Source of the DNA: Pelagibacteraceae bacterium
Lineage (GTDB): Bacteria > Pseudomonadota > Alphaproteobacteria > Pelagibacterales > Pelagibacteraceae
NCBI GenBank assembly: GCA_009693705.1
Contig: SHWS01000006.1
Coordinates: 1-64,000 of the forward strand
Direction: 5' to 3'
DNA: 64,000 bases
In this document: piece after piece, positions 25,891 through 29,904 of the stretch
Numbering within the stretch: position 1 is the first letter of the stretch
How the letters are laid out: every line of letters starts with the position of its first letter
Program-made: the position numbers and the translations under genes
The notes under the pieces: model-generated
Databases searched by the model: none
Seen by the model: only the letters and a program-made list of their open reading frames with translations
Told to the model about the DNA's origin: nothing

Positions 25891-26106
25891 TTGTCAAAAC
25901 AAGACTTACTAGAATTTAAGGGAAAAGTTACAGACTTACTTCCGAATGCGATGTTTAGAGTTCAATTAGAAAATGGACATATGGTTACAGCTCACACAGC
26001 GGGTAAGTTAAGAAAAAACAGAATTAGAGTGTTACAAGGAGATAGCGTAACAGTAGAAATGACTCCCTATGATCTTACTAAAGGTAGAATAATCTTTAGA
26101 GGTTAG
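25891..26106 (+). CDS. infA: Translation initiation factor IF-1
   Basis: A 71-aa OB-fold protein that blocks the ribosomal A site during initiation. The sequence runs from [19 protein letters not shown] through [20 protein letters not shown] to [13 protein letters not shown], a textbook IF-1. The start codon is TTG (25891), with the upstream purine-rich AGGAGATAA at the hisD end serving as ribosome site. It follows hisD by 5 bp and precedes tRNA-Phe by 5 bp. Confidence 0.96.
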
Positions 26107-26111
26107 TTTAT

Positions 26112-26186
26112 GGCTGAGTAGCTCAGGAGTAGAGCAGAGCCCTGAAAAGGCTTGTGTCGGGAGTGCGAATCTCTCCTCAGCCACCA
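26112..26186 (+). tRNA. tRNA-Phe (GAA)
   Basis: Cloverleaf: acceptor GGCTGAG/CTCAGCC, D-arm GCTC-AGGAGTA-GAGC, anticodon arm GAGCC-CTGAAAA-GGCTT with anticodon GAA, variable GTGTC, T-arm GGGAG-TGCGAAT-CTCTC, A73 and encoded CCA (26184-26186). All stems pair apart from G-U pairs. The T-loop reads TGC instead of the near-universal TTC, so position 55 is G. It begins 5 bp after infA and may be processed from the same transcript. Confidence 0.9.
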
Positions 26187-26497: not shown

Positions 26498-26540
26498 AAG
26501 GGTGTTTTATCTCCAAAAGTAGATAAGCACCCTTTTTTTT
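26498..26540 (+). terminator. Strong factor-independent terminator after cspA
   Basis: AAGGGTG pairs with CACCCTT and, further in, TTATCT with AGATAA, with a loop of about 8 nt, followed by eight T residues. This is the clearest terminator in the window. A second short hairpin (AGTCT-AAA-AGACT, 26563-26575, then T5) follows and may act as a backup. Confidence 0.85.
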
Positions 26541-26653: not shown

Positions 26654-26707
26654 TTATTTATAATATAATTTTTAAATCCACATAAAATAATATAAAAAAC
26701 TAGTAAG

Positions 26708-26782
26708 GCCCCTGTGGTGAAATAGTAATCACGCAAGTTTGTGGAACTTGAGTCTTTGGTGCGATTCCAAGCGGGGGTACCA
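26708..26782 (+). tRNA. tRNA-His (GTG)
   Basis: Cloverleaf with acceptor GCCCCTG paired to CGGGGGT (terminal G1-U72), anticodon arm CAAGT-TTGTGGA-ACTTG with anticodon GTG, T-arm TTTGG-TGCGATT-CCAAG, A73 and encoded CCA (26780-26782). A73 and G1-U72 mean the canonical G-1:C73 identity pair of bacterial tRNA-His is missing, as known for most alphaproteobacteria outside Rickettsiales. As in the tRNA-Phe here, T-loop position 55 is G. hisS starts 5 nt after the CCA. Confidence 0.9.
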
Positions 26783-26787
26783 AAAAA

Positions 26788-28185
26788 ATGAACAAAGAAA
26801 ATAAATTAATCCCTGGGTTACCCTCAGGATTTGAAGATCGATGGAATAAAAAATTACTTCTTAAAAAAAAGCTTTTAAAAGCCATAGAGAAGAATTTTGT
26901 TAAATTTGGTTTTGATCCATTAGAAACTCCATCGTTTGAAATTAGTGAAAATATAGGATCCTTTCTTGCAGAAGATGACAGTAATCCTATGTCTGATGTA
27001 TTCTCTTTTGAAGATGGAAATAAAAATATTACTCTGCGATATGATCTTTCAAGTCCTTTAGCAAGATTTGTGGCTCAAAATAATCAAGAATTACCCTCTA
27101 TTTATAAACGTTATGCAATTCAAAACGTTTTTAGAAATGAAAAAGCAGGTAATGCACGATACCGAGAATTTACGCAGGCAGATTGTGATATTGTTGGCAA
27201 TGTTAATCCAGCCCAAGCGAATGCTGAATTGTGCAATCTAATAGCAAGTACCTTAATTGCCTGTGGTCTTAATAAAGATCAGTTTACTATTAATGTAAGT
27301 AATCGAAAAATTGTTCAAGGTTTAATTGAAGAACTTAAGATTTCTGAGGAAAAGAAAATAAAAGTTATGCGAGCTATTGATAAGCTAGATAAACCTGGCT
27401 TTGGGTTGAAAGGAGTTGAAGATCTTTTAAAAAAACAAAGAAAAGATGCAAGTGGAGCAATAACAAAAGGCGCAGATTTAAATGATGATCAAGCTTCTCA
27501 AATCATAAACTTTTTAAAAGCAAAAGATTTAACAGAATTAAAAAAGAGACTTAAAAACCCCGTGTCCCAAGAGGGCATAAAAGAGATTGAAGATCTTTTA
27601 GAAATTTTAACCTATGGCGGATACGCAGATCAAGTTAAAACAAACTTTACGATAGTAAGAGGACTAGCGTACTACGATGGTTTCTGTGTTGAAACTAATT
27701 TAAATTTCAAAGCGACAAATATAGAAGGTAAAGAAGTGGACATTGGGAGCATTTGTTCTGGAGGTCAATACAATAAACTTATCTCAAGATTTAAAGGTCT
27801 TGATATTCCTGGCACAGGCGTAAGTATTGGTGTAGATCGACTATTGTTTGCTATGATGCAACTCGATCAAATTAAAGTAGATGAACAAAAACCAGCAATT
27901 GTCTGTGTCATGGAGGAAAAATATTTAAAAAATTATTACGATATTTTAAATATTTTAAGAAATAATAACATTAATTCAGAAATATTCTTAGATAGTAAGA
28001 AAAATCTTGGAAAACAATTAACTTATGCAAATAAAAGAGGATGCCCCGTTGCAGTTATTTGTGGAGAAAATGAATTTAAAGATAATACCGTAACCCTTAA
28101 AAATCTTTTAGGAACCAAGGGTGAAAATAATCAGATTACAGTATCAAAAGAGAATTTAATTAATGAAATTAAAAAATTTATCTGA
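26788..28185 (+). CDS. hisS: Histidyl-tRNA synthetase
   Basis: Class II synthetase charging tRNA-His. Motif 1 region is GLPSGFEDRW, motif 2 is NVFRNEKAGNARYREFTQAD, the histidine-binding loop reads VRGLAYYDGFCVET, and motif 3 is GTGVSIGVDRL; a C-terminal anticodon-binding domain follows. The 465-aa protein is longer and divergent from the E. coli type, in line with the alphaproteobacterial HisRS that accompanies tRNA-His lacking G-1. ATG is only 5 nt downstream of the tRNA-His CCA, so there is no room for a Shine-Dalgarno outside the tRNA. Followed by hisZ with a 23-nt overlap. Confidence 0.93.
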   Translation: MNKENKLIPGLPSGFEDRWNKKLLLKKKLLKAIEKNFVKFGFDPLETPSFEISENIGSFLAEDDSNPMSDVFSFEDGNKNITLRYDLSSPLARFVAQNNQELPSIYKRYAIQNVFRNEKAGNARYREFTQADCDIVGNVNPAQANAELCNLIASTLIACGLNKDQFTINVSNRKIVQGLIEELKISEEKKIKVMRAIDKLDKPGFGLKGVEDLLKKQRKDASGAITKGADLNDDQASQIINFLKAKDLTELKKRLKNPVSQEGIKEIEDLLEILTYGGYADQVKTNFTIVRGLAYYDGFCVETNLNFKATNIEGKEVDIGSICSGGQYNKLISRFKGLDIPGTGVSIGVDRLLFAMMQLDQIKVDEQKPAIVCVMEEKYLKNYYDILNILRNNNINSEIFLDSKKNLGKQLTYANKRGCPVAVICGENEFKDNTVTLKNLLGTKGENNQITVSKENLINEIKKFI

Positions 28186-29209
28186 AAAAATCCTTAAATC
28201 AGTAAAATCTAAAGGATTTAAGTATATAGAGCTACCTTCGGTGATTGAAGCTGATCATATCGTTCAAAGATCAGGTGAAAATTTTAGAAAATTTATATTT
28301 TCTTTCACCGATCAAAATGGCAGTGAATTATGCTTAAGGCCAGATTTAACTATTGTATCGTGTCTAAGATATTTAGAAAATAATTTAAAAGGTAAAGAAA
28401 AAATATTTTATAGCGGTCAAGCTTATAGAAAATCACAAGATAAAAAAGACTCTATCATTAGAAATCAAATAGGTTTTGAAATTATTGGATCACAGGATGA
28501 AAAAAATGATGATAAAGAAATTATTTATACTTCTTTGAAAACGCTTCAAGGCATAAAATATTCATCTGGAGTTTTAACCATAGGCAATGTTGAAATATTT
28601 AACCTTCTTTTATCAAAATTAGATATTCCAAAAAGATGGAGATTAAGACTCTCAAGACATTTTTGGAGAGAAAATTATTTTAACGACTTATTAAAGAGAC
28701 TAGAGACTAACTCCGATGTTGATCCTACAATCGTTGAAGTAGATAAAAAACGTTATTTTCAAATGTTAAAAGATGACTATTCTATTATTGTTGCAGGACG
28801 ATCAATTAGAGAAATTTTAAAAAGATTTGATGATAAAATTAAAGATCCAAGAAGAACCAGCAAAGGTCAAAAAGTTTCAAAAATTATTAAAGATTTTTTA
28901 AAGATTAAATGTCCAATTAATCAAGCAGCTAAAAAAATAAATAGTTTTTTTGAAAAAAAAAAAATTAACTTAGTGGTCGATCAAAGATATTTCCCAATTT
29001 CAAATAATAAAGTTTTAAATTTAAACGTTATTTTTTCAGCTTCCTTTGGAAGACAACTTGAATATTATACCGGAATGGTTTTTAAAGTAGATATTAAAAT
29101 TAATTCAAAAATTAAAAATATTATTAATGGTGGCAGATACGATAACTTAATTTTAGACCTTGGTGCTAAGAAAAAAATTCCAGCAGTCGGAGCTGCTTTA
29201 AATCTATAA
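28163..29209 (+). CDS. hisZ: ATP phosphoribosyltransferase regulatory subunit
   Basis: HisRS-like paralogue without synthetase function, which combines with short HisG to make the histidine-feedback-sensitive enzyme. The catalytic-domain relic is seen in FIFSFTDQNGSELCLRPDLT, SGQAYRKSQDKKDSIIRNQIGFEIIG and the ending NGGRYDNLIL. Length 348 aa fits HisZ. It starts inside hisS and precedes hisG by 5 bp; the pairing with a short-form HisG supports the assignment. Confidence 0.87.
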   Translation: MKLKNLSEKILKSVKSKGFKYIELPSVIEADHIVQRSGENFRKFIFSFTDQNGSELCLRPDLTIVSCLRYLENNLKGKEKIFYSGQAYRKSQDKKDSIIRNQIGFEIIGSQDEKNDDKEIIYTSLKTLQGIKYSSGVLTIGNVEIFNLLLSKLDIPKRWRLRLSRHFWRENYFNDLLKRLETNSDVDPTIVEVDKKRYFQMLKDDYSIIVAGRSIREILKRFDDKIKDPRRTSKGQKVSKIIKDFLKIKCPINQAAKKINSFFEKKKINLVVDQRYFPISNNKVLNLNVIFSASFGRQLEYYTGMVFKVDIKINSKIKNIINGGRYDNLILDLGAKKKIPAVGAALNL

Positions 29210-29214
29210 TTGTC

Positions 29215-29904
29215 ATGAATGATATTATTAATATAGGAATTCCAAGCAAAGGTAGACTTCGAAAAGATATTTTAAATCTTTTTAAAAAAAAGAAGTTAAA
29301 TTTAATTTCCGAGCGCGGTGAAAGAGATTTGTTTGCCTCTATTAAAAACTACAAGAATATTAAAGTAGTTTATTTACACGCTCGAGAAATCATCCAAAGA
29401 CTTGGAGATGGTTCTTTAGATCTAGGTTTTTCAGGATATGATTTACTTAAAGAAAGTGAAATTAATACTCAAAATAAGATCAATGTAGTAAATAAATATG
29501 GTTTTGGTAAAGCAACCTTGGTGATTGCAATTCCTGATATATGGATTGATGTACAAACTATTGCCGATTTAGAAGAAATTGCTTTTCAGTTTAAGGATCA
29601 AAAGAAAAAAAGACTGAGAGTAGCTACAAAATATCCAAATCTTACAAGAGAATTTTTATTTGCAAGAGGAGTTACTCAGTTTGAATTAGTTGAAAGTTTA
29701 GGTGCTACCGAAACATATCCATTCACCGGTTCTTCAGAAATTATTACAGATATCACATCTACAGGAGACACTTTAAGAGCTAATAATTTAAGAATTTTAA
29801 AAGATGGACAAATATTAAAATCAGAAGCTTGCATGATGATTTCAAAGTCAGCATCAAAAAATGTTGCTATTAAAAAAATAGTTAGATTTCTTTCTAAGGA
29901 TTGA
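29215..29904 (+). CDS. hisG: ATP phosphoribosyltransferase, short form
   Basis: First committed step of histidine synthesis. The 229-aa protein is the HisZ-dependent short form, without the C-terminal ACT-like regulatory domain. Motifs include GIPSKGRLRKDIL, SLDLGFSGYDLL, ATKYPNLTREF and the phosphate loop SLGATETYPFTGSSEIITDI. Downstream of hisS and hisZ in one run, so regulation of flux and tRNA charging share a transcript. Confidence 0.93.
   Translation: MNDIINIGIPSKGRLRKDILNLFKKKKLNLISERGERDLFASIKNYKNIKVVYLHAREIIQRLGDGSLDLGFSGYDLLKESEINTQNKINVVNKYGFGKATLVIAIPDIWIDVQTIADLEEIAFQFKDQKKKRLRVATKYPNLTREFLFARGVTQFELVESLGATETYPFTGSSEIITDITSTGDTLRANNLRILKDGQILKSEACMMISKSASKNVAIKKIVRFLSKD

Follow-up and report, generated by a model that had tools for sequence, protein, structure and literature searches.

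A conserved tRNA-His–hisS junction in Pelagibacteraceae (SAR11) and its possible part in forming a near-leaderless hisS mRNA

Background

In the tRNA punctuation of animal mitochondria, tRNA genes lie at the boundaries of mRNAs with almost no spacer, so that their excision would leave near-leaderless mRNAs. The locus described here, where a tRNA-His gene is followed by hisS, the gene for histidyl-tRNA synthetase (HisRS), shares with that arrangement a tRNA at the 5' boundary of an mRNA and a near-zero spacer (5 nt). It differs in that SAR11 bacteria are free-living, the CCA end is encoded, only a fifth to a third of the tRNAs are so placed, and processing at these junctions would be hypothetical. 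Bacteria also have tRNA-mRNA operons (tRNA-tufB, tRNA-Trp-secE), which the present locus resembles in that a tRNA and a protein gene would share a transcription unit; here, however, the gap is 4–5 nt and the downstream gene encodes the cognate synthetase. Here too, tRNA-Trp precedes an ORF which we take to be secE-like, at a gap of 16–18 nt. The Escherichia coli synthetase gene thrS is autoregulated through a tRNA-like operator in its leader. Like thrS, hisS is preceded by an RNA that its own enzyme can recognise, but this is a real tRNA gene rather than a tRNA-like leader, and feedback on hisS would be hypothetical.

The RRCH-type tRNA-His/HisRS pairs of Alphaproteobacteria carry A73 and no conserved G at position −1, and 7 of 8 SAR11 strains are so typed in the available part of PMC3937112, which treats identity elements and not gene adjacency. 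Our tRNA-His agrees with this type in its A73 (the A at 26779). Position −1 is A, T, C or G among relatives and thus not conserved, but in the window itself it is G (26707). The titles and abstract openings of the open-licence papers retrieved yielded nothing on junctions between tRNAs and coding sequences in SAR11 or on the loss of TruB there.

Results

The junction and the transcription unit

The DNA analysed (the window) is a stretch of 64,000 nucleotides from an assembly of 1.29 Mb in 49 contigs (genome G000); the features discussed are listed in Table 1. The initial annotation had placed the end of tRNA-His 5 nt before the hisS start codon, which proved exact: read directly, the junction is ...GGGGGTACCA AAAAA ATG, with CCA at 26780–26782, five A and ATG at 26788. 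The annotation had also raised the prospect of a different true start. No ATG, GTG or TTG precedes 26788 in frame in the window, ATG 26788 being the earliest such codon downstream of the in-frame stop, and an alternative start was rejected; matches begin at residue 1 in most loci of g1, the genus of the window. Many relatives do have an in-frame GTG or TTG within the tRNA, which we judged to be spurious since tRNA sequence would be translated.

The terminator hairpin of the upstream csp gene (−15.7 kcal/mol, z −4.7; 0 of 200 shuffles equally good) delimits tRNA-His-hisS-hisZ-hisG as a unit. A sigma-70 consensus scan found no match in the A+T-rich promoter-like stretch 5' of tRNA-His and none inside the tRNA gene; this last result and the terminator favour a single transcript. 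The histidine-centred unit proposed initially was supported, hisZ lying 3' of hisS at 25 of 25 genus loci and at all 78 loci with enough sequence among the best 80 of 459 GTDB relatives, with hisG next in the window. The two coding sequences hisS and hisZ overlap by 23 nt in the window, an overlap kept at 24 of the 25 genus loci and at 77 of the 78 GTDB loci.

Table 1. Features of the tRNA-His-hisS locus in the window
Feature	Position	Strand	Evidence
Terminator hairpin 3' of upstream csp gene, T tract to about 26541	26498–26534	+	fold
A+T-rich promoter-like stretch 5' of tRNA-His, kept in relatives	26670–26697	+	by eye only
tRNA-His(GTG), A73, T-loop TGCGATT, CCA encoded	26708–26782	+	ARAGORN; Rfam RF00005, 54.4 bits
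Spacer AAAAA, CCA to hisS start codon	26783–26787	+	direct reading
hisS, histidyl-tRNA synthetase, 465 aa	26788–28185	+	TIGR00442, 344 bits (cut-off 287); PF13393, PF03129
hisZ, ATP phosphoribosyltransferase regulatory subunit	28163–29209	+	NF008953, 391.9 bits (cut-off 384)
hisG, ATP phosphoribosyltransferase	29215–29904	+	TIGR00070, above cut-off

Conservation of the spacing

The adjacency of tRNA-His and hisS is a real and old family trait of SAR11 (Pelagibacteraceae), and an unusual one. At the 25 readable loci of genus g1 the gap is 4 nt in 20 cases, 5 nt in two, 6 nt in two and 27 nt in one (L017), the 4-nt gap of L019 being uncertain as its CCA lies two bases past the usual position. 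Among the best 80 of 459 GTDB relatives, of which the closest named records are Pelagibacteraceae (SAR11) including BACL5 and many single-cell genomes, the tRNA precedes hisS in 80 of 80 and the start is ATG in 80 of 80, with gaps of 4 nt (65), 5 nt (8), 6 nt (4) or 7 nt (3); these loci overlap with the 25 genus loci, being partly from the same genomes, and sums over the two sets are invalid. The letters of the spacer vary (AAAA, TAAC, AATTA, AAACA, AAATA), AAAA being the commonest (61 of these best 80 of 459), and its length is nearly constant. A strict junction pattern with a 4-nt spacer was present in 26 of 61 genus genomes, compared to one match for the reversed control pattern. The conserved 5-nt spacing envisaged in the initial annotation therefore holds as a short gap, of 4–7 nt at 80 of 80 loci and 4–6 nt at 24 of 25, and breaks down at L017. 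The 27-nt spacer of this locus (genome G022) contains AAGGC...GCCTT, which could fold into a small hairpin between the tRNA and hisS; the locus was kept in the gap count and excluded from the count of tRNA bodies given below.

Elsewhere in the family, where HisRS is 45–49% identical to that of the window, the gap is 5 nt at 10 of 11 loci of genera g5, g102, g103 and g105, the eleventh (L309) ending at a contig edge; it is also 5 nt in G156, a genome from another genus than that of the window, which gives 11 of 11 readable loci in four other genera. In the other family of the order, tRNA-His lies more than 1 kb upstream at three of five loci (L026, L028, L029). Upstream context was taken for 20 of 95 genomes of the class, picked among the strongest HisRS matches; one of these was G156, and 19 of the 19 other alphaproteobacterial genomes have no tRNA in the approximately 1.1 kb upstream of hisS. 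Chance is rejected as the origin of the junction, both because the short gap persists throughout the family and by the divergent-strand control described in the next section.

Short junctions at other tRNAs

We searched five genomes for ORFs of at least 60 aa starting no more than 12 nt 3' of a tRNA, excluding tRNAs with too little flank (29 of 30 were used in G000). Besides G000 and G156 these were G012, a complete g1 genome; G105, from another small-genome family; and G175, a 3.4 Mb genome whose GC content is 57% over the parts read. Such starts follow 6 of 29 tRNAs in G000, 7 of 32 in G012, 11 of 32 in G156 and 9 of 35 in G105, and in these four small genomes all 33 are ATG; in G175 there is one among 38 tRNAs, a TTG ORF that looks spurious. 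On the divergent strand the same count gave 0/25, 0/30, 1/14, 0/14 and 2/14 for G000, G012, G156, G105 and G175 respectively. In each of the three Pelagibacteraceae genomes counted, 6–11 tRNAs have short gaps, so that hisS is not singled out, and the short gap is a habit of the genome; the initial annotation had read too much into it as special to hisS, other tRNAs of G000 being equally close to a downstream ATG.

The ORFs that follow tRNAs in G000 include NAD kinase (Leu(TAA)), NDUS4-like (Pro), GIY-YIG (Glu) and CCA-adding-enzyme-like (Gln) genes, and the median gap between co-directional coding sequences in the window is 3 nt (n = 43). In G000, G012 and G156 the gap is 5, 4 and 5 nt after tRNA-His, 3, 3 and 6 nt after tRNA-Gln, 6, 6 and 1 nt after tRNA-Leu-CAA and 6, 5 and 12 nt after tRNA-Pro. 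The spacing at hisS is thus steadier than at the other junctions, but these are few and the three genomes are related, and a constraint specific to hisS is not established.

A second gene of tRNA biogenesis lies 3' of a tRNA at the tRNA-Gln junction (L080, L052), where 3 nt separate the tRNA from the CCA-adding-enzyme-like gene in G000 and from a similar ORF in G012. Coding genes can also be followed directly by a tRNA: infA ends 5 nt before tRNA-Phe (window 25891–26186), and 4 of 28 tRNAs in G000 and 4 of 32 in G012 lie no more than 12 nt after an ORF stop.

Shine-Dalgarno sequences

Shine-Dalgarno (SD)-like 4-mers 5' of ORFs of at least 150 aa were compared with shuffled sequence, taking the first ATG as the start, by which rule some starts will be wrong. 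They are not enriched in g1 (window 1.8% vs 3.7% shuffled, n = 57; G012 4.3% vs 4.6%, n = 47), and are enriched in G156 (18% vs 6%, n = 33), G105 (21% vs 6.5%, n = 42) and G175 (30% vs 19%, n = 57). Since the genes of the genus show no SD enrichment, the missing SD before hisS, over-read in the initial annotation, is no anomaly; the enrichment in G156 means that this argument is valid for g1 and not for the whole family. The hisS start accordingly has what a short-leader mRNA calls for, namely an AUG, as throughout the best 80 of 459 relatives, in a genus without SD enrichment.

The tRNA-His body and TruB

The tRNA-His of the window lacks GG in the stretch taken as D-loop, in addition to its unusual T-loop (Table 1). 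Across 104 genus loci, which are the overlapping sets of 25 and 80 (the best 80 of 459 GTDB relatives) minus L017, there are 22 distinct tRNA-His bodies, some with non-standard D- and T-loops; T-loop bases 54–56 are TTC at 48 loci and other letters at 56, L019 among the latter being probably out of register. ARAGORN missed tRNA-His at L005, L006, L015 and L016, where it was recovered with Rfam. With 76% identity between G000 and G012, compared to a median of 97% for tRNAs, tRNA-His ranks near the top in divergence, behind Thr-GGT, Leu-TAG and Arg-ACG.

The tRNAs without a TTC T-loop number 4 of 30 in G000, 3 of 32 in G012, 1 of 32 in G156, and none of the 35 in G105 or the 38 in G175. No match to the pseudouridine-55 synthase TruB was obtained in G000 or in G012, which is complete; G156, G105 and G175 have the enzyme. 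TruB_N matches occur in 14 of 148 family genomes, in four of the nine sampled genera (g5, g102, g103, g105) and in none of g1. As T-loops were counted in few genomes, the link between TruB absence and non-standard T-loops is a correlation only.

Candidate processing enzymes

Profile matches above cut-off were found for RNase E/G in 4 of 4 genomes and for RNase Z in 0 of 4, three of which have weak RNase Z matches of 34–44 bits. At both loci inspected the weak match adjoins an ORF that is presumably tatD-like, and the weak matches were judged to be another metallo-hydrolase; RNase Z was rejected as the cutting enzyme. In Propionibacterium acnes, which has no obvious RNase Z, dRNA-seq placed endonucleolytic cuts a few nt 3' of CCA-encoded tRNAs (PMC3848588, available part). 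By analogy, a cut of this kind at hisS would hit the spacer or the start codon.

Discussion

We propose that the junction was made by streamlining and that maturation of the tRNA frees a near-leaderless hisS mRNA which is translated without an SD, a reading taken as a whole to which we give even chances. Under this proposal tRNA-His would be the first cistron of the tRNA-His-hisS-hisZ-hisG transcription unit, genome streamlining would have reduced the junction to 4–5 nt as one among several tRNA-to-AUG junctions, and hisS would be carried on the same primary transcript as the tRNA. During tRNA maturation an endonuclease, for which RNase E is the likeliest candidate, would cut the A-rich spacer or beside the AUG, releasing an hisS mRNA with a leader of 0–5 nt; its translation would then proceed without an SD, as that of most genes here appears to do. 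A cut within the hisS coding region would on the contrary destroy the mRNA, and this may be its usual fate. That HisRS synthesis is coupled to tRNA-His maturation is, judging from the sequence, a fair hypothesis.

Streamlining may equally have produced the junction without any role in expression, hisS being translated from the dicistronic RNA, either unprocessed or partly unfolded, with tRNA maturation destroying that copy of the mRNA. The generally short gaps of this genome, both at tRNA-ORF junctions and between coding sequences, suit such an explanation, but the footprint of a 30S subunit on AUG 26788 would by its geometry extend into the folded acceptor stem, and the gap at hisS varies less than those at other junctions of the same genomes; we consider this explanation unlikely. 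The unprocessed transcript might instead act as a feedback operator by analogy with thrS, HisRS binding its tRNA-His part and blocking the AUG 4–5 nt away, such that excess enzyme would stop its own translation. This would be in keeping with a cognate tRNA directly 5' of its own synthetase in at least five genera and with a spacing kept though the tRNA body varies (22 distinct bodies). However, the genes behind most of the other abutting tRNAs have no relation to the amino acid of the tRNA (NAD kinase, NDUS4-like, GIY-YIG, phhB-like), and feedback of this kind strikes us as quite improbable.

The near-absence of a leader could also stem from transcription itself, if hisS had a promoter inside the tRNA gene and its leader were short or absent from the transcription start, and some bacteria commonly have leaderless starts (PMC3848588, available part). 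The consensus scan, however, found no match inside the tRNA, and the tRNA sequence 5' of hisS varies widely among relatives, leaving such a promoter seriously in doubt. Lastly, the acceptor stem could serve as an SD, with GGGGGU at 26773–26778 pairing with 16S rRNA once the tRNA is unfolded. The predicted pairing is indeed −10.0 kcal/mol in the window and at L004, but it is −1.9 at seven g1 loci with a normal tRNA body (L018, L020–L025) and about −4 at most others, and the genes of the genus do without SD use. Pairing so weak in relatives with a normal body is not a kept feature, and we rejected this candidate, whose probability we put close to nil.

The preferred reading, in which tRNA maturation would free the hisS mRNA, has a wider form that we advance tentatively and hold to be unlikely. 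SAR11 would have a mitochondria-like punctuation, with 6–11 tRNAs per genome serving as cutting signals for near-leaderless mRNAs; at hisS the cut would tie the supply of HisRS to tRNA-His maturation, the 4–5 nt spacing being held while the tRNA body was remodelled. Even on a plain reading the junctions are of use in annotation, where tRNA-adjacent starts should be kept and not shifted downstream in the hunt for ribosome-binding sites.

SAR11 bacteria are among the most abundant cell lineages of the ocean. Adjacency offers tRNA-His and HisRS a physical route by which to move or evolve together, and co-transfer of the pair into SAR11 has been discussed by Wang et al., as cited in the available part of PMC3937112. 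If the proposed coupling is true, a synthetase would be tied to its tRNA without any regulator, and if tRNA processing sets the 5' ends of mRNAs in SAR11, mitochondrial gene expression would have a counterpart in a free-living organism.
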